Origin: Chloroflexota bacterium | GTDB lineage: Bacteria > Chloroflexota > Anaerolineae > B4-G1 | Assembly: GCA_024232355.1 (NCBI GenBank) | Contig: JAAEPW010000850.1 | Span: forward strand, 1 to 6,691 | Length of the DNA stretch: 6,691 bases | Direction of reading: 5' to 3' | Shown: piece after piece, positions 1 to 6,691 of the stretch | Layout: every line of letters starts with the position of its first letter | Numbering within the stretch: position 1 is the first letter of the stretch | Notes under the pieces: generated by a model | Database searches by the model: none | Seen by the model: the letters and a program-made list of their open reading frames with translations, nothing else | Told to the model about the DNA's origin: nothing | Translations under genes and position numbers: made by a program

Positions 1-300
1 CGTACCTTGCGATCACACGTGCCCGGGCTGGGACGAAGAGAAGAAGGGTTGGCCAAGACGAAGGAAGGGTTGCTTCGTCGGTTGCGACTGGTGATGGGCT
101 ATTACAACTTTTGCCTACCTCACTTGTCCCTCCGAGAAGCATTGCCGAAACCAATGCCGACCAAAGGCAATGGTTCACCCAAGAAATGGATGTCCCGGAC
201 ACCTGCTATGGCGGCGGGTCTTACTGATCACGTCTGGACGATGGGCGAGTTTCTGCTCTTTCGAGTGCCCCCGTGGCGACAGGAGGCGACAGCGGCTTAG
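1..300 (+). CDS. Transposase, C-terminal part (5' end outside window)
   Basis: The frame is open from base 1 to a TAG at 298-300, so the gene enters from the left. Visible segments are ALGRR-like GLGRREEGLAKTKEGL (about residues 10-25), an MGYYNFCLPHLSLREAL block (about 32-48), TKGNGSPKKW, and TPAMAAGLTDHVWT near the C-terminus. A YYNFCLPHxSLR segment followed by TPAMAAGLTDHxW is the pattern I know from the C-terminal end of DDE-type, IS1-like transposases, which cut and join DNA at the ends of their element. The catalytic core would lie mostly upstream, so I cannot tell whether the enzyme is intact. The family (IS1-like versus another DDE group) is recalled rather than checked. A TTG at base 7 is open but is not a believable start, because homology-like sequence continues to the edge. 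Confidence 0.72.
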   Translation, partial: RTLRSHVPGLGRREEGLAKTKEGLLRRLRLVMGYYNFCLPHLSLREALPKPMPTKGNGSPKKWMSRTPAMAAGLTDHVWTMGEFLLFRVPPWRQEATAA

Positions 301-460
301 GGAGGAGTGCGTCACCGGGGAGAAAACGAAGGGGTGAGCGCATCTGCACGGCGCCAAATGCGGCGTCTGTGACTTCCATGTGCCCAGTTTTGGGTCTGGG
401 ACGCTGTTTTTCTGTGTTGGAGGCCGTTTGGTCGTTTTCCGGGGTGTGGCTGAATTATCC

Positions 461-482
461 GCATCCTAATGGGTCAGTACCC
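461..482 (+). repeat. Putative terminal inverted repeat of the insertion sequence
   Basis: Read on the minus strand this stretch begins GGGTACTGACCCATTAGG, which looks like an IS terminus. It also contains a small internal palindrome (GGGT, four bases, ACCC at 471-482). It lies directly before the methyltransferase ATG. The matching left repeat is not in the window, so this is an inference. Confidence 0.35.
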
Positions 483-485
483 TCA

Positions 486-3400
486 ATGAACCCCATCAAC
501 CAATCCGAAATCAACGACATCCTCTGGCGAGCCTGCGACACCTTCCGTGGCACCGTCGACCCCGCCGAATACAAAAACTATATCCTCGTCATGCTCTTTG
601 TCAAATACATCTCTGACGTCTGGCGCGACCGCTACGAGCAACTGCTCGCACGCTACGACGGCGACCAGGAGCGCGTCCAACGGGCGATGCGCTACGAAAA
701 GTTCACCCTGCCCGCAGACTGCGACTTTGAGACACTCTACGCCCAGCGCAACGCCGACAACCTGGGCGAAATCATCAACATCGCGCTGGAGGCCATCGAG
801 GAGGCGAACAAGGAAAAGCTAGAGGGCGTCTTTCGCAACATCGACTTTAACTCTGAGGCCGCGCTGGGCCGCACCAAGCAGCGCAACGAACGGCTCAAGA
901 ACCTGCTCAACGATTTTGCCGACAAACGCCTCGATCTGCGCCCCTCCCGCGTGGGCAACCTCGACGTCATCGGCAACGCCTACGAGTACCTCATTGGCCG
1001 CTTTGCGGCGGGGGCGGGCAAAAAGGCGGGCGAATTCTACACCCCGCCCGAGGTCTCCACCCTGCTGGCCCGGCTGGTGGCCCCCCGGCCCGGCGACCGC
1101 ATCTGCGACCCCACCAGCGGCTCCGGCTCGCTGCTGATCCGCTGCGCCAAGGAGGTAGATGGCGACGACTATGCCCTCTACGGCCAGGAGAACAACGGCT
1201 CCACCTGGGCGCTGGCCAAGATGAACATGTTCCTCCACGACGTCAGTTCGGCCCGCATCGACTGGTGCGACACGCTGCGCGCGCCCACCCTCGTCGAGGG
1301 CGACCACCACATCAAATGCGGCAACTCGCTCATCGGGGCGACGCCCGAACTGATGGACGCCGGCATTTCCACCGACGCCTTCAAGCCCGTCACCGGCGAC
1401 GACAAAGCCGTGGCCAAGGCGGTACGGGCACGCAACCGGCGCGAGTTGAAAGAGTGGGAGGCGGGCGCGGTGCAGGGCCGTCTTTTCCAGGTGACGCTCT
1501 ACGAGCCGGGCGGAGCCGTACACCAAGAGTACGTCACCATCGCCGGCCTGGCCGAGGAGCAGCCCAAGATGGCGCAGGAACGCTACGCCGAGTACCTCAC
1601 GGCGGACGATTATCGCAGGAAAAAACTAGAGGCCGACTTTTGGACCGCCGCCTTTTTCTGGCCGTTGATCACCGTAGGGGCGCAGGTCTCCGCGCCCACC
1701 TGGACACCCACCCACGGCGAGTTCATCCGGCTGCGCGAGCAAGGCCCCGAGACCCTGCCGCCGGAAGCATTGGCGCAGATCGAGGCCCTGGCCGAGCAGT
1801 ACCGTTTCTTCCACTGGCATTTAGAGTTCCCCGATCTGTTTGCGGACGATGGTGCAAGAGGGTTTGACGTGGTGCTAGGCAACCCGCCGTGGGAGCGGAT
1901 CAAGCTGCAAGAGAAAGAATTTTTTGCCGACAAGGACGCCGAGATTGCCAATGCCCGCACCGCTGCCGAGCGGCGCAAGTTGATCAAGCGCTTGCCCCAG
2001 GCCAACGCTGCTTTGCACGCTGCATACATCGCTGCCTTGCGCAAGAGCGAGTCGGCAGGACACTTTTTGCGTAGTTCTGACCGCTTTCCATTGACCTCTG
2101 GTGGTGACATCAACACCTATGCTATATTCGCCGAGTTATCTCTACAATTGGTTTCGCAGAATGGGTTTGCGGGAACTGTGGTGCCAACAGGAATCGCTAC
2201 AAACTACACATACCGCAATTTTTTTGGGAACCTGATGGAGAATTCACTGCTAAGTAGCCTTTACGACTTTCAAAATTCGGCAGGAATCTTTTCGCAAGTT
2301 GATCGAAATCAGAAATTTGTCCTTCTGACTATGAGTGGAGGAACAACCGCAAGTGAATCAGTTTTTGCTTTCGCACTTACGGATACATCTGGACTGTCTG
2401 AACTTGGCTCGAAAGTGATACTGACAGCCGATGACATATCGCTAATTAATCCAAACACTCGAAATTGTCCGATTTTTGATACGGCGCAAGATGCAGGAAT
2501 TGCTAAACGCATTTACTGGAAATGTCCTGTGTTAGTAAATGAAAACAAACAAGAGGAAAATGAATGGAACATTAGTTTTGATCGTATGTATGATATGACA
2601 ACAGACAGTAGCTTATTTCAGGATCGCGAGTCCCTTGCCCGACTTGGGTACAAAAGAAATCAGAGGGGATGGTTATATTTGGAGACCACAATATTCATTC
2701 CTTTGTACGAAGGGAAAATGATTTATCAATTTGATCATCGTTTTGCCCAAGCAGATCCGCCAAGTCGACAAGGAGGTATACGGGGCTCTTCGCGGCAGGT
2801 AATTGCTAAACAGCACCAGAATCCAAGTTTCTATCCCGAGTCTCGATATTATGTTTCCGAGAGTGAGTTCAATAGCAAGTATCCTGAACGTAATTGGTTC
2901 ATTGGTTATCGTGATGTCACCGGTACGGTTGCTAACGTTCGAACTGTGATATTTTCTCTGATTCCAAGAGCGGCTGCAGGAAACAAGGTGCCCATCGTAC
3001 TATTTGGTGGCAATCATAAAGCCATTCATATTGCAGCATTCCTTAGTAACATGAACTCGTTCGTTTTCGATTTCACAGCCCGTCAAAAAATTAGCGGGAT
3101 GTCTCTGAACTACTACATACTTCAGCAACTCCCTACAATCCCACCTTCCCGCTACACCCCCGATCACCTCGATTTCATCGTCCCCCGCGTAGTCGAACTC
3201 ACCTACACCGCCTGGGACCTGCAAGCCTTCGCCGATGACATCTGGTGCGAGGCTGACGACCGGCTGAGAGAGAGGCTGCGCCAGCAATGGGAGAGCAATG
3301 CACATTCTCTTGAAGGGAAATCAAATTTCCTTGAAAGAAATCAAAATTCCTTTGAAAGAAAAATAAATTCCCTTGAAAGAAACGAGGGAATGACTCAAAC

Positions 3401-3635
3401 GGCAGAACGTTTTCCCTATCCGCCGTTTACGTGGGATGAGGAACGCCGCGCCATCCTGCGCGCCGAGCTGGACGGCCTCTATGCCCACCTCTACGGTCTC
3501 ACCCGCGAGGAGTTGGACTATATCCTGGATACCTTCCCCATCGTCCGTCGCAAGGATGAGGCCAAGTACGGGGAGTACCGGACCAAGCGGATGGTGTTGG
3601 AGAGCTATGACGCACTGAAAGGACAATTTGGGTAG
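486..3635 (+). CDS. Chimeric adenine-N6 DNA methyltransferase: HsdM N-terminus fused to Eco57I/type IIG-like C-terminus
   Basis: A 1049-residue enzyme predicted to transfer a methyl group from S-adenosylmethionine to adenine N6 in DNA. Residues 1-150 match the HsdM N-terminal helical domain (MNPINQSEINDILW, YILVMLFVKYISDVW). FYTPPE lies at 184-189 and the SAM-binding motif DPTSGSGSLLI at 208-218. At about residue 273 the sequence switches to HHIKCGNSLIGATPELM, typical of large Eco57I-type methylases. The catalytic motif NPPW is at 466-469, followed by a recognition region (about 530-880) and a conserved C-terminal block (YILDTFPIVRRKDEAKYGEY). Type I HsdM is usually about 500 residues with NPPF soon after motif I; here the two motifs are 250 residues apart, as in the second family. 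I chose ATG 486 because HsdM homology starts there, although the frame is open upstream through IS sequence. No Shine-Dalgarno site precedes it. Methylation activity is inferred; a complete motif set is visible. No HsdS, HsdR or nuclease domain is seen. Confidence 0.85.
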   Translation: MNPINQSEINDILWRACDTFRGTVDPAEYKNYILVMLFVKYISDVWRDRYEQLLARYDGDQERVQRAMRYEKFTLPADCDFETLYAQRNADNLGEIINIALEAIEEANKEKLEGVFRNIDFNSEAALGRTKQRNERLKNLLNDFADKRLDLRPSRVGNLDVIGNAYEYLIGRFAAGAGKKAGEFYTPPEVSTLLARLVAPRPGDRICDPTSGSGSLLIRCAKEVDGDDYALYGQENNGSTWALAKMNMFLHDVSSARIDWCDTLRAPTLVEGDHHIKCGNSLIGATPELMDAGISTDAFKPVTGDDKAVAKAVRARNRRELKEWEAGAVQGRLFQVTLYEPGGAVHQEYVTIAGLAEEQPKMAQERYAEYLTADDYRRKKLEADFWTAAFFWPLITVGAQVSAPTWTPTHGEFIRLREQGPETLPPEALAQIEALAEQYRFFHWHLEFPDLFADDGARGFDVVLGNPPWERIKLQEKEFFADKDAEIANARTAAERRKLIKRLPQANAALHAAYIAALRKSESAGHFLRSSDRFPLTSGGDINTYAIFAELSLQLVSQNGFAGTVVPTGIATNYTYRNFFGNLMENSLLSSLYDFQNSAGIFSQVDRNQKFVLLTMSGGTTASESVFAFALTDTSGLSELGSKVILTADDISLINPNTRNCPIFDTAQDAGIAKRIYWKCPVLVNENKQEENEWNISFDRMYDMTTDSSLFQDRESLARLGYKRNQRGWLYLETTIFIPLYEGKMIYQFDHRFAQADPPSRQGGIRGSSRQVIAKQHQNPSFYPESRYYVSESEFNSKYPERNWFIGYRDVTGTVANVRTVIFSLIPRAAAGNKVPIVLFGGNHKAIHIAAFLSNMNSFVFDFTARQKISGMSLNYYILQQLPTIPPSRYTPDHLDFIVPRVVELTYTAWDLQAFADDIWCEADDRLRERLRQQWESNAHSLEGKSNFLERNQNSFERKINSLERNEGMTQTAERFPYPPFTWDEERRAILRAELDGLYAHLYGLTREELDYILDTFPIVRRKDEAKYGEYRTKRMVLESYDALKGQFG
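1302..1310 (+). other. Fusion junction between HsdM-type and Eco57I-type sequence
   Basis: Upstream residues (QENNGSTWALAKMNMFLHD, then CDTLRAPTLVEGD) are characteristic of HsdM. Downstream residues (HHIKCGNSLIG, then AFKPVTGDDK) are characteristic of large Eco57I-type methylases. The switch falls at GACCACCAC, residues D273-H275. HsdM proteins commonly continue here with a D/H-containing stretch leading to FDVVVANPPF, and the other family commonly has LDHHIK at this place. A short shared GACCAC could therefore have joined the two genes in frame. The exact base is an estimate. Confidence 0.6.
2080..3130 (+). other. AT-rich recognition-domain segment inside the methyltransferase gene
   Basis: Base composition changes sharply inside one reading frame. 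I counted 47 G/C in 1081-1140, 24 in 2221-2280, 18 in 2521-2580 and 38 in 3181-3240. The AT-rich part begins just after the NPPW region and ends just before the conserved C-terminal region. In this enzyme family that is where the DNA target recognition domain lies. The pattern fits replacement of the recognition domain by recombination with a foreign allele while the catalytic and C-terminal parts were kept. Boundaries are approximate. Confidence 0.6.
3304..3387 (+). repeat. Four tandem 21-base in-frame repeats (heptapeptide array)
   Basis: Four direct units start at 3304, 3325, 3346 and 3367, each beginning ATT and carrying CTTGAA or TTTGAA followed by A/G-rich sequence (shared core TTGAAAGAAA in the last three). 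They encode seven-residue units read as HSLEGKS, NFLERNQ, NSFERKI and NSLERNE (residues 940-967). The array is much more AT-rich than the flanking coding DNA, keeps the frame, and lies in a linker just before the conserved C-terminal block. It is probably a dispensable spacer that can change copy number by slippage. Confidence 0.75.
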
Positions 3636-3717: not shown

Positions 3718-4092
3718 ATGAACACAAGTTACGAACAAATAGGAACCGTTCTGGAGAAACTGACGTTTGATGAAAGCCAAACTGTGCTGCGCTTTGCCGA
3801 GTTCCTGTTGCAACAACGCCGGGGCGCGGTAGACGCTCGTACTGCCCGGCGCAAAGTGAGTGCCTGGTTGGTGCGCGACGTGGGCAACCTACTGATGGGA
3901 GGAGAACCCAAGTACGTGCCGGGCGAACATCCTCTGTGGCGGGTGCCCGTACTCGTCACCCATGGCCGCCAGGGTCGCGCGACGTTTGTAGACGTAGATG
4001 CCCAAACCGGCGATTTGCTAATCACTCGAGATACACCGCAGCAGGTACTGACCCATGTCCAAACCTTTATTGCTGGTTTCTCATCGAACTGA
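3718..4092 (+). CDS. Hypothetical protein, 124 residues
   Basis: I do not recognise a named family. The N-terminal ~35 residues (IGTVLEKLTFDESQTVLRFA, then EFLLQQRRG) form an amphipathic helical segment resembling the start of small DUF2281- or antitoxin-like proteins. The C-terminal half has a WRVPVLVTHGRQGRATFVDV segment followed by DAQTGDLL, a strand-rich pattern reminiscent of PepSY-like or ligand-binding domains in which a DAxTGE turn is common. There is no signal peptide or membrane segment, so it should be cytosolic. ATG 3718 has AAGGAG 10 bases upstream and a strong extended -10 promoter before that, which supports it as first gene of the run. The next gene follows after 24 bases. The PepSY and DUF2281 comparisons are impressions, not assignments. 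Confidence 0.75.
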   Translation: MNTSYEQIGTVLEKLTFDESQTVLRFAEFLLQQRRGAVDARTARRKVSAWLVRDVGNLLMGGEPKYVPGEHPLWRVPVLVTHGRQGRATFVDVDAQTGDLLITRDTPQQVLTHVQTFIAGFSSN

Positions 4093-4116
4093 GAATTTTA
4101 AAAGAGTGCAAGACCC

Positions 4117-4830
4117 TTGAACAATATAAACGATGATCACGATCTCTCTGACGACGTAAAGGCTGTCCGCCATTTTGCGGAAACAGACCCGGTTGCTCTT
4201 AATCATCATCTCGAACTCTTGTTTCGCCAGCAGTACCAGGTAGCATTGGAAGCCCTATGCGACGAAATGGGGAACCGTGACCGCGAGCAAAAGGTGGTGC
4301 TGGAGAAACTGTCCAAGTTGCAGGGTAGCGGCCGCCCCGCCCCGGAACATATTCCAACACTGATCGCGCTGGAACGTATCACGCGGGAGGCTGGTGGCAC
4401 GGAATACTGCGAGGTAGAGAAAACTATTTTCCAAGTGATGGCCTTTTTGAGTCATCTCGACCTGATCACCTTCCTGGTAGAAGCTTTCCAGTACCGTCGT
4501 CGTCATGACAGCTTTGCCGAGCGGCGACGCGAGTACTCGATCGACATAGTCGCCGTCATTGCTGCCCACACCAGTGCCCCCCAGGCCATAACTGCATTGG
4601 GCGAGATGTTGGCCGATCCCGCGCCCAAGATTCGCGGGGTAGCGTTGGACATCATCTATGAAGCCTACGAGCGAGAGGCACGCGAAATGCCAGGTCCCTT
4701 GCTCGATTATTTTTGGCAACTGGGTCGGGATGATCCCGACCGGCGTGTGCGTCAGACGGCCTTGGCCTTTTTGCAGCGTATGGGACAGGTCAGCTATGCG
4801 GAGGCATTGAGATACTTGGAAGGTAGATAG
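4117..4830 (+). CDS. HEAT-repeat protein (TTG start)
   Basis: A 237-residue soluble, helix-rich protein. The C-terminal half has two HEAT-like helical hairpins: about 153-186 (SAPQAITALGEMLADPAPKI, then RGVALDIIYEA) and about 192-223 (LLDYFWQLGRDD, then RRVRQTALAFLQRMG). Such repeats form curved scaffolds that bind other proteins. The N-terminal 150 residues are helical and charged (HHLELLFRQQYQVALEAL), with no motif I know. I accept TTG at 4117 because a stop lies in frame at 4099-4101, no ATG or GTG lies between, and the first in-frame ATG (about residue 51) would remove conserved-looking helices. A modest purine-rich site (AAAGAG, 4101-4106) precedes it, so translation may be weak. It probably shares a transcript with its neighbours. 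The partner is unknown. Confidence 0.8.
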   Translation: MNNINDDHDLSDDVKAVRHFAETDPVALNHHLELLFRQQYQVALEALCDEMGNRDREQKVVLEKLSKLQGSGRPAPEHIPTLIALERITREAGGTEYCEVEKTIFQVMAFLSHLDLITFLVEAFQYRRRHDSFAERRREYSIDIVAVIAAHTSAPQAITALGEMLADPAPKIRGVALDIIYEAYEREAREMPGPLLDYFWQLGRDDPDRRVRQTALAFLQRMGQVSYAEALRYLEGR

Positions 4831-4850
4831 GACGGGCCGGAGCGCATGCT

Positions 4851-5570
4851 ATGCAAGGAATGATTGAAATGAATAGTCTGATCCAGCAATTGATCCAGCC
4901 GGGAAACCTACCACACCCCGACTTGTTAGCCGACATCCTGACTTGTGGAGATGCGGCTGTTGAACCTCTGATTGCCATCATCAGTAATCAGAAGGTGTAC
5001 TGGTATGACGCCCAGGGTTGGCCGCGCTGGCTGCCCAGTTATGCCATAGGGTTGCTGGGGGATTTGCGCGCCAAAGCGGCCATCCCTGTGCTCGTTGAGT
5101 TGCTCCGTCGGCAGGGCACGGGCGATCTGTGTGACCAGGTTGTTGATGCTCTGGTTCGCATCGGCCCGGCTGCGGTCAAGCCGCTCAAAGCGGTCGTTTT
5201 GGATCGGTCTTTGGGCTGGCCCCCGCGTTCGCATGCTATCCGGGCATTGGTGGGCCTGATTCACAGGGGGATGAAGGATTCCGAAACGCTTCTTGAATTC
5301 CTGCAGTCTCTGCTGGTTCACGGCCCGGCCAATCATCCAGACGATAGATCTGTCTATGCCTTTTTGGCTCATGACCTGGCCGACTTGCAAGGCATGGATG
5401 CGGTCGAGACCATCCGGGCAGCCTTCCAACGTGATGCCATTGATCCGGTTTATATAGATTGGCCTGACGCCGAGACGATGTGTCAAAACGCCTCTCCCGA
5501 TCTTTTGCGGCGCTATACTGTGGATTTTCTGTCCGATTATCGAACCAAGTTTCATAGGAGAAGAGATTAA
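4851..5570 (+). CDS. HEAT-repeat protein, DUF1186-like
   Basis: A 239-residue (or 233-residue) helical repeat protein. HEAT-like units are visible at about 61-88 (YAIGLLGDLRAKAAIPVLVE), 94-118 (VVDALVRIGPAAVKPLKAV), 126-156, and 167-197 (VYAFLAHDLADLQG, then AVETIRAAFQRDAIDP). The last unit resembles the DUF1186 family, which often carries or travels with a SEC-C motif. That fits the next gene, whose ATG directly follows this stop codon. Three in-frame ATGs lie within 21 bases. ATG 4851 has CGGAG 8 bases upstream. ATG 4869 has AAGGA upstream and is a strong alternative. The likely role is a protein-binding scaffold; no enzymatic motif is seen. It lies 20 bases after the previous HEAT gene, and the two could form a heteromeric complex, which is inference. 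Confidence 0.82.
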   Translation: MQGMIEMNSLIQQLIQPGNLPHPDLLADILTCGDAAVEPLIAIISNQKVYWYDAQGWPRWLPSYAIGLLGDLRAKAAIPVLVELLRRQGTGDLCDQVVDALVRIGPAAVKPLKAVVLDRSLGWPPRSHAIRALVGLIHRGMKDSETLLEFLQSLLVHGPANHPDDRSVYAFLAHDLADLQGMDAVETIRAAFQRDAIDPVYIDWPDAETMCQNASPDLLRRYTVDFLSDYRTKFHRRRD

Positions 5571-6260
5571 ATGTCCAAATACGTAAACCCACCCCGGTTT
5601 GACCGTGGTGATTTGACAGGGATGGTTGATCCCGATGGTGGATTTCTGTGCATGACTATGCACTGGCGACCCGATCCGGAGGCCGCCGATCCAGAGATGC
5701 CAGGTGAAAAGCTATCTATGAGCAGCTTTATTCCCCTGTCTGGAAGGAAAGTATGCCTGTGTGGCAGTGGTAAGCGCTACCGTGACTGTTGCCAACAGAA
5801 TCGTCTGTGGCATCCGGTGTGTCCCAACCCCGGTGGTCCTGACAACGGGTATAGACTGGTCAAGCCCCAACGAGCTACCTTTCGCAACTTTGACGGAGGC
5901 CTGATCCGCGAGCAGTTGGTAGCAGACCGGCGACTGCGCTGTACGGATACTAGCCCGATCAGCAGTTTTTGGATTCTCTTTGGCGATCCGCCGGTAGAAG
6001 AGCAGTACGGTATTCTCTGCTTTGGCGACATTGAATTCGAGCGCAACCGTACCCTCGCAGTGAGTGCGATGAGCGATCTGCGAATGCAGACATTGCTGGC
6101 GCTGCTGCACGAGGTCGCCGGCGATATGCTGGGGGAGCCGCGGATAAGCTATGACGTGGTGATGGGGATTGACAAATCAACAAATAAGATGTGCAAAATG
6201 AAGGTGTCAGAACCGGGACAACGATCAAAACGCCGACGGCGCAGGCGCCAAGATGGTTAA
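5571..6260 (+). CDS. SEC-C zinc-motif protein with arginine-rich tail
   Basis: A 229-residue protein with a clear SEC-C motif at residues 62-74 (CLCGSGKRYRDCC). Its cysteines (C62, C64, C73, C74) are those that bind one zinc ion in the C-terminal tail of SecA and in many otherwise unrelated proteins, where the motif mediates binding to proteins or the ribosome. Here it is internal. About 110 residues follow with strand-helix character (FWILFGDPP, GILCFGDIEFERNR, LALLHEVAGDML) that I do not recognise. The protein ends in a basic tail (KRRRRRRQDG, 220-229) that could bind nucleic acid. The start is well supported: AGGAG (5556-5560) lies 10 bases before the ATG, which abuts the preceding stop codon, implying translational coupling to the DUF1186-like gene. 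Zinc binding is established for the motif; the partner is not known. Confidence 0.85.
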   Translation: MSKYVNPPRFDRGDLTGMVDPDGGFLCMTMHWRPDPEAADPEMPGEKLSMSSFIPLSGRKVCLCGSGKRYRDCCQQNRLWHPVCPNPGGPDNGYRLVKPQRATFRNFDGGLIREQLVADRRLRCTDTSPISSFWILFGDPPVEEQYGILCFGDIEFERNRTLAVSAMSDLRMQTLLALLHEVAGDMLGEPRISYDVVMGIDKSTNKMCKMKVSEPGQRSKRRRRRRQDG

Positions 6261-6505: not shown

Positions 6506-6691
6506 ATGAATCCTTTCATCGTACTTTCCCAGGTCCAACAGAATTACCGCACCTACGTCCAGACCTTTCAACAATTCCAGAACGAGGAAATCGAGCAATG
6601 GATTGGGGAACGCATCGACAACGGCACGCTGCTCTGGAAGCCGCCTTACGTCCAACTCTCGCGCCCCTTTGCGCCGGGCAAGTCGCTGTCC
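6506..6691 (+). CDS. N-terminus of a large protein, probably a superfamily 2 helicase (3' end outside window)
   Basis: An ATG 8 bases after AGGAG (6493-6497) opens a frame that stays open to the right edge, giving 62 residues. The sequence begins MNPFIVLSQVQQNYRTYVQT and includes ERIDNGTLLWKPPYVQLSRP and FAPGKSL. This resembles the opening of very large DEAD/DEAH-box helicases found beside Eco57I-type methylases in defence loci, including DUF1998-type helicases, where an aromatic-rich TYVxTFQxF stretch and a W-PP-R-PFAPG segment precede the helicase core. No Walker motif falls within the window, so the helicase call rests on resemblance alone. If correct, it would be the DNA-translocating part of a restriction-like system with the methyltransferase gene upstream. 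Confidence 0.6.
   Translation, partial: MNPFIVLSQVQQNYRTYVQTFQQFQNEEIEQWIGERIDNGTLLWKPPYVQLSRPFAPGKSLS

Follow-up and report, generated by a model that had tools for sequence, protein, structure and literature searches.

The stretch of DNA analysed here (6,691 nucleotides from a Chloroflexota bacterium, assembly GCA_024232355.1, contig JAAEPW010000850.1; hereafter the window) carries on its forward strand a single open reading frame (ORF), free of internal stops, in which two families of DNA methylase meet within one polypeptide (Table 1). Residues 1-272 are those of a type I restriction methylase, HsdM, and the remainder, up to the C-terminus, is related to ArmB, the methylase of ARMADA defence loci, and to its DrmMI-like and type IIG-like relatives. 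A first-pass annotation of the window had proposed such an in-frame chimera, with motif I, which binds S-adenosylmethionine (SAM), drawn from HsdM, the catalytic NPPW from another methylase class, and a frame open to the natural C-terminus, and Pfam and alignments bear it out on all of these points. In the chimeric protein, HsdM_N is recognized at residues 10-144 (E 1.2e-28) and N6_Mtase at 160-269 (E 4.2e-34), the latter over profile positions 4-120 of 311 only, while the strongest Eco57I stretch falls at residues 433-482. The protein thus has the HsdM_N domain and the motif-I part of N6_Mtase that characterize a type I HsdM, but its N6_Mtase domain is incomplete, lacking the NPPF of HsdM, and it scores 128.5 bits against the NCBIfam HsdM model TIGR00497, whose cut-off is 242.75. 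Scanned apart with PADLOC, the halves have as their top matches a type I methyltransferase (1-272) and type IIG and DrmMI proteins (273-1049). No Pfam nuclease family is found in the chain at E <=0.01, a threshold that weaker relatives could escape, and Rfam gives no match at gathering scores.

Table 1. Features of the chimeric methylase gene and its downstream neighbours, in window coordinates.
Feature	Position	Strand	Remarks
Chimeric methylase ORF	486..3635	+	1049 amino acids (aa), stop codon within coordinates; start agrees with HsdM relatives
HsdM-derived segment, residues 1-272	486..1301	+	HsdM_N domain, motif X, motif I, first two strands
Motif X FYTPPE	1035-1052	+	In HsdM-derived segment
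Motif I DPTSGSGS	1107-1130	+	In HsdM-derived segment
Left-over HsdM motif III WCDTL	1263..1277	+	In a stretch modelled at low confidence (see text)
Junction CGACCACC	1301..1308	+	8 nt; longest in-register match between parent types
ArmB/DrmMI/type-IIG-like segment, residues 273-1049	1302..3632	+	Alignment, segment-wise matches, PADLOC
ArmB motif III strand HHIKCGNSLIG	1305..1337	+	Alignment; strand in the model at residues 274-278
Catalytic motif IV NPPW	1881..1892	+	Sequence and alignment
Putative target-recognition region, residues 541-885	2106..3140	+	Proposed from variability
Tandem repeat of ~20-21 bp, SLERN-like heptads	3309..3382	+	Inside chimeric ORF
SEC-C motif gene	5571..6260	+	Pfam; 48% over 191 residues to a gene beside an ArmB-like fragment in L093
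Start of YprA/DruE-like helicase gene (ArmC-like)	6506..6691	+	First 62 residues in window; cut by window end

The two parents are distinguished by where their alignments stop and start. The HsdM relative P0122 aligns over residues 2-277 at 81% identity and then ends, reaching 82.8% over 268 aa when residues 1-272 are compared as a separate segment; in P0001, a 1365-aa Eco57I-type protein of the Chloroflexi, a near-identical block begins at residue 273, with 95.3% identity to residues 273-487 over 215 aa and 47% to residues 488-1049. Sequences of solved structures matching at E <=0.001 are all HsdM-type (10/10), their best stretches ending at residues 253-274, and the ten best of 141 plasmid records matching window positions 1-3000 all lie within 494-1320, nine being annotated as type I subunit M and one unannotated. 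Proteins were searched with the whole chimera (7997 candidates scored, best 120 of 6760 matches used), with residues 1-330 (7999 scored, best 120 of 5868) and with the junction region, residues 215-345 (529 scored, best 120 of 155). Among the 322 matches listed (E <=0.001, segments compared apart), 121 match residues 1-150, 201 match residues 273-487 and none matches both, so that the full-length co-linear homologues which the first-pass annotation had proposed to look for did not appear and the chimera reading stands. Likewise, no protein listed for the junction-only search spans the join: the top match covers 56% of the region (146 bits), proteins with HsdM_N (PF12161) at most 59%, and the two that cover more than 90%, P0241 and P0099, are ArmB-type. 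The 112 alignments that do cross the join, to 240 proteins among the matches listed, can be ascribed to the motif-I homology common to both families, since no protein matched both segments apart; those viewed (80 of 112) begin mostly at residues 203-206, some earlier at low identity. Nor does any match starting before residue 85 pass residue 335 in the contigs of the best 80 of 98 relatives, or any listed match starting before 100 pass 292 in 396 genomes sampled from one class (mostly two candidates each). With the right half as query, 400 genomes sampled from the phylum gave frames of 607-1704 aa, whose N-termini were not inspected singly. Neither these sets of 396 and 400 genomes nor two further genomes gave a place that matches the window as closely as P0001 does, the best identity of the right half there being 56%.

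The join itself lies where relatives of the two parents share a short word. The junction CGACCACC is codon-aligned in relatives of both, their in-register overlap being confined to 1301-1308, within a few bases of the breakpoint first proposed (1302-1310), and among 300 pairs of sites compared the longest match measures 8 nt when the register is kept and 9 nt when it is left free. HsdM-side relatives read, for instance, GAA GGC GAC CAC CTG (L048, L083) and ArmB-side relatives CTC GAC CAC CAC ATC (L009, L091), and the chimera reads GAG GGC GAC CAC CAC ATC; GAC CAC is not universal on the HsdM side, P0122 having EDGHL there. Because this 8-nt match is codon-aligned in the relatives, the join is best read as a microhomology join that kept the codon register of both parents. 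Neither parent itself was found. Composition was considered as a sign of two source organisms and proved uninformative at the junction, the G+C content at third codon positions (GC3) being 0.87 in the HsdM part and 0.81 in residues 273-487. Further along, GC3 falls to 0.39 in residues 541-885, a drop larger than in any of six relatives compared (the largest of theirs, in L009, being from 0.53 to 0.28), and this region looks like a separately acquired target-recognition region. The tandem repeat beyond it encodes the heptads SLEGKSN/FLERNQN/SFERKIN/SLERNEG, where the linker of P0001 differs and is shorter.

The neighbourhood identifies the right-hand parent more closely. The ARMADA set is given in passages of PMC12458937 as a BrxHII/RapA-like helicase (ArmA), a PglX-like methylase (ArmB) and a YprA-like helicase (ArmC); mutation of the ArmB NPPW is reported there to abolish protection, and mutation of the SAM GxG motif to cause only partial loss. 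As no PADLOC model carried the name ARMADA, the ArmB label rests on the neighbours and on those passages. The YprA-like helicase is present in the window, as judged from its first 62 residues, which over ~61 residues are 79% identical to the counterpart in L132, 45% to that in L088 and 43% to that in L009; the longer L088 product matches DruE models. Five longer loci (L128-L132) were drawn from the class and phylum samples. In L132, an ArmA-like DrmD/BrxHII-like helicase (967 aa) is followed by an ArmB-like protein (1487 aa), other genes and an ArmC-like YprA/DruE-like helicase, and in L009 (Methanosarcina sp. DH2) a DrmD/BrxHII-like helicase precedes a 1334-aa DrmMI-like methylase, with a DruE-like helicase further on. 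Given the gene order of L132 and the 79% match, the window helicase belongs with the ArmB parent, and HsdM entered from the left. The first-pass annotation had assigned the right half to an Eco57I/type IIG-like enzyme; it does belong to another methylase class, but its NPPW half, its C-terminus and its ARMADA-like neighbours mean that this parent is better named, as far as its sequence indicates, ArmB/DrmMI-like than a stand-alone type IIG enzyme. ArmB's own N-terminal half, with its SAM motif, is missing, HsdM sequence standing in its place. The 485 bases that precede the chimera, all that the window contains on that side, show no ArmA, and neither hsdS nor hsdR was found among the window genes scanned. 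The fusion may have arisen, as the first-pass annotation proposed, by a deletion between two adjacent restriction loci, but such a deletion would also have removed an ArmA-like gene, since one lies directly upstream of the methylase in five of six relatives inspected (L009 and L129-L132, not L128), and a mobile-element remnant may lie upstream.

Other features of the window lie outside the fusion. Between methylase and helicase (3718-6260) are four small genes, encoding an unassigned 124-aa product, one with weak HEAT-repeat matches below the Pfam cut-offs, one with DUF1186 and a weak HEAT match, and the SEC-C protein; none has a counterpart in L132 at E <=1e-4. At the left edge, an open frame at 1-297 has no Pfam or NCBIfam family and is matched by tblastn in five plasmid records, of Deinococcus and Meiothermus, where the product is labelled a hypothetical protein. 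We take this frame to resemble the end of a transposase, and thus to be a possible remnant of a mobile element upstream, the libraries having named no family for it.

The HsdM half shows little sign of age. Conservation was assessed in 120 relatives, each cut to 420 residues, with P0121 excluded. Of 48 columns at least 95% conserved, the chimera departs at three (residues 275, 285 and 286), all past the join and none before it, and of 86 columns at least 80% conserved up to residue 272 it departs at two; decay of the HsdM half was not seen at the stricter level. The few departures at conserved columns, together with the 95% identity of residues 273-487 to P0001, point to a recent fusion, functional or not. 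In P0121, a 653-aa HsdM relative, a stretch of ~160 residues around motif I occurs twice, almost unchanged; this protein is either another rearranged methylase or an assembly error.

A model of the chimeric protein (predicted local distance difference test, pLDDT, 81; predicted template modelling score, pTM, 0.74) spans the join with a single methylase fold, into which both halves fit. A control model of the ArmB-type relative P0004 is worse (pLDDT 71.5, pTM 0.54), and is not a clean comparison because P0004 is N-terminally truncated and its alignment shallower.

On balance, and with modest confidence, we regard the gene as recently and probably genuinely fused at microhomology; it would lie in a Chloroflexota-like bacterium, within an ARMADA-like locus for defence, and would encode one methylase fold. 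The weight of the evidence favours a real, recent event. In this reading, illegitimate recombination at the 8-nt microhomology would have joined 272 hsdM codons to an ArmB/DrmMI-like gene from about codon 633 onward, removing the N-terminal half of ArmB (~630 residues) and with it the original SAM motif. From the HsdM part would come the helical domain at the N-terminus, motifs X and I, and strands 1-2; strand 3 and all that follows it, with the catalytic NPPW and the recognition region, would come from the ArmB part. Between them the two would make up a single adenine-N6 methylase fold, from which the surplus strand 3 of HsdM loops out. Motifs I and IV are both present in the sequence, and the chimera may still bind SAM and methylate DNA with ArmB's specificity. 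The first-pass view that the enzyme has its own recognition region is supported, so HsdS is probably dispensable: an active chimera would methylate the target of ArmB in its absence. If ArmA is missing, it would probably have no role in ARMADA defence. That the protein is a natural working methylase, with its SAM-binding half from a type I HsdM and its catalytic and recognition half from ArmB, is put forward only tentatively.

Several observations weigh against this interpretation. Motif III is present twice, the HsdM strand IDWCDTL being retained ahead of the ArmB strand HHIKCGNSLIG, so that the motifs do not simply keep the order first described. Residues 255-272 are modelled below pLDDT 50, and the alignment behind the model included both parents, for which reason the model is not a demonstration of activity. 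Two substitutions in the HsdM half could be early drift: C211S, beside motif I, in a column 80% conserved where four relatives carry the same residue, and G261C, in motif III, in a column 88% conserved where six do. The actual HsdM parent was not found, and no second occurrence of the join was found in the proteins, contigs and sampled genomes searched, as an artefact would likewise predict. Lastly, the ARMADA layout is not universal among right-hand relatives within the stretch seen, an ArmC-like gene being present in two of the five Chloroflexota-sample loci (L129, L132).

One alternative, a possibility of some substance, overlaps with the favoured reading in that both take the event as real: the fusion would be a relic without methylase activity, the scar that a deletion left where a defence locus is decaying. 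The loss of the ArmB N-terminal half, the absence of ArmA from the 485 upstream bases, the possible mobile-element remnant, the second motif III and the two substitutions all agree with it, but the frame runs through 1049 codons without stop or frameshift, the most conserved HsdM columns are intact before the join, residues 273-487 remain nearly identical to P0001 and both modelled halves fit one fold. A recent relic would show the same intactness as a working enzyme, and, given a real fusion, the two are about equally likely.

Rather unlikely is a chimera of library or assembly: a short match would have brought HsdM and ArmB fragments together in amplification, ligation or assembly, and the gene would exist in no cell. 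The join has been seen once, and the window begins in an open frame and ends within a helicase gene, like a short metagenome contig. Assembler overlaps are usually longer than the ~8 nt that could be shared at the join, as judged from relatives, and misassembly in a De Bruijn graph at a long shared word was considered and found unlikely, the overlap in relatives not exceeding 8 nt with the register kept or 9 nt without that condition. The window contains no Ns. Random ligation also seems unlikely, since it would hardly have kept the frame and placed the join so that motif I of one fold is followed, in due order, by motif IV of a homologous one; composition is neutral, the GC3 of the halves being alike. 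The explanation keeps its weight because the join is unique and known from the assembled contig alone. With no other instance found, the join is either an infrequent accident of nature or an artefact of sequencing; the protein may still adopt an enzyme fold. That HsdM-Eco57I hybrid methylases form an ordinary, established family is most improbable and was rejected as far as the matches listed reach: long HsdM-type proteins (up to 988 aa among them), many Eco57I-type proteins and the join-crossing alignments would suit it, but those alignments begin mostly in the motif-I region common to both families, and neither the segment-wise nor the junction-only comparison yields a co-linear homologue.

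Compared with type I HsdM (P0122; PacII M1, 7vru/7vs4), the chimera shares HsdM_N, motif X and motif I, with their order and spacing, and differs in all that follows residue 272, including the HsdM NPPF and C-terminal region. With ArmB/DrmMI/type IIG-like proteins (P0001, the L132 methylase) it shares residues 273-1049, with motif III, an insert of ~180 residues, NPPW, the recognition region and the C-terminal domain, and the YprA/DruE-like helicase downstream; it differs in lacking the ~630 N-terminal residues that carry ArmB's own motif I, and its locus in the ArmA-like helicase not seen upstream. Engineered fusions of HsdM-HsdS and half-HsdS, described in passages of PMC6158711, resemble it in that M subunits fused to recognition domains remain active, but there HsdM is joined to HsdS, whereas here the methylase fold itself comes from two families. 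Among the papers listed, literature titles and the beginnings of abstracts, with passages of PMC3384240 and PMC6158711 in addition, describe no natural HsdM chimera or hybrid methylase of this kind.

The usual account of restriction and defence methylases, found in part in passages of PMC6158711, is that they evolve by the shuffling of whole domains (such as nuclease, methylase and recognition). Should the gene prove a relic or an artefact, it would counsel caution over hybrid enzymes known from a single contig. A natural join inside the catalytic fold, if true, would offer a ready test of two things: how far SAM-binding and catalytic halves are interchangeable, and whether methylation by ArmB is separable from the ARMADA system. 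If the enzyme also works, it would mean that half-domains within the Rossmann fold can pass between gamma-class methylases of different defence systems through one microhomology event, giving an activity independent of HsdS and of the rest of ARMADA.
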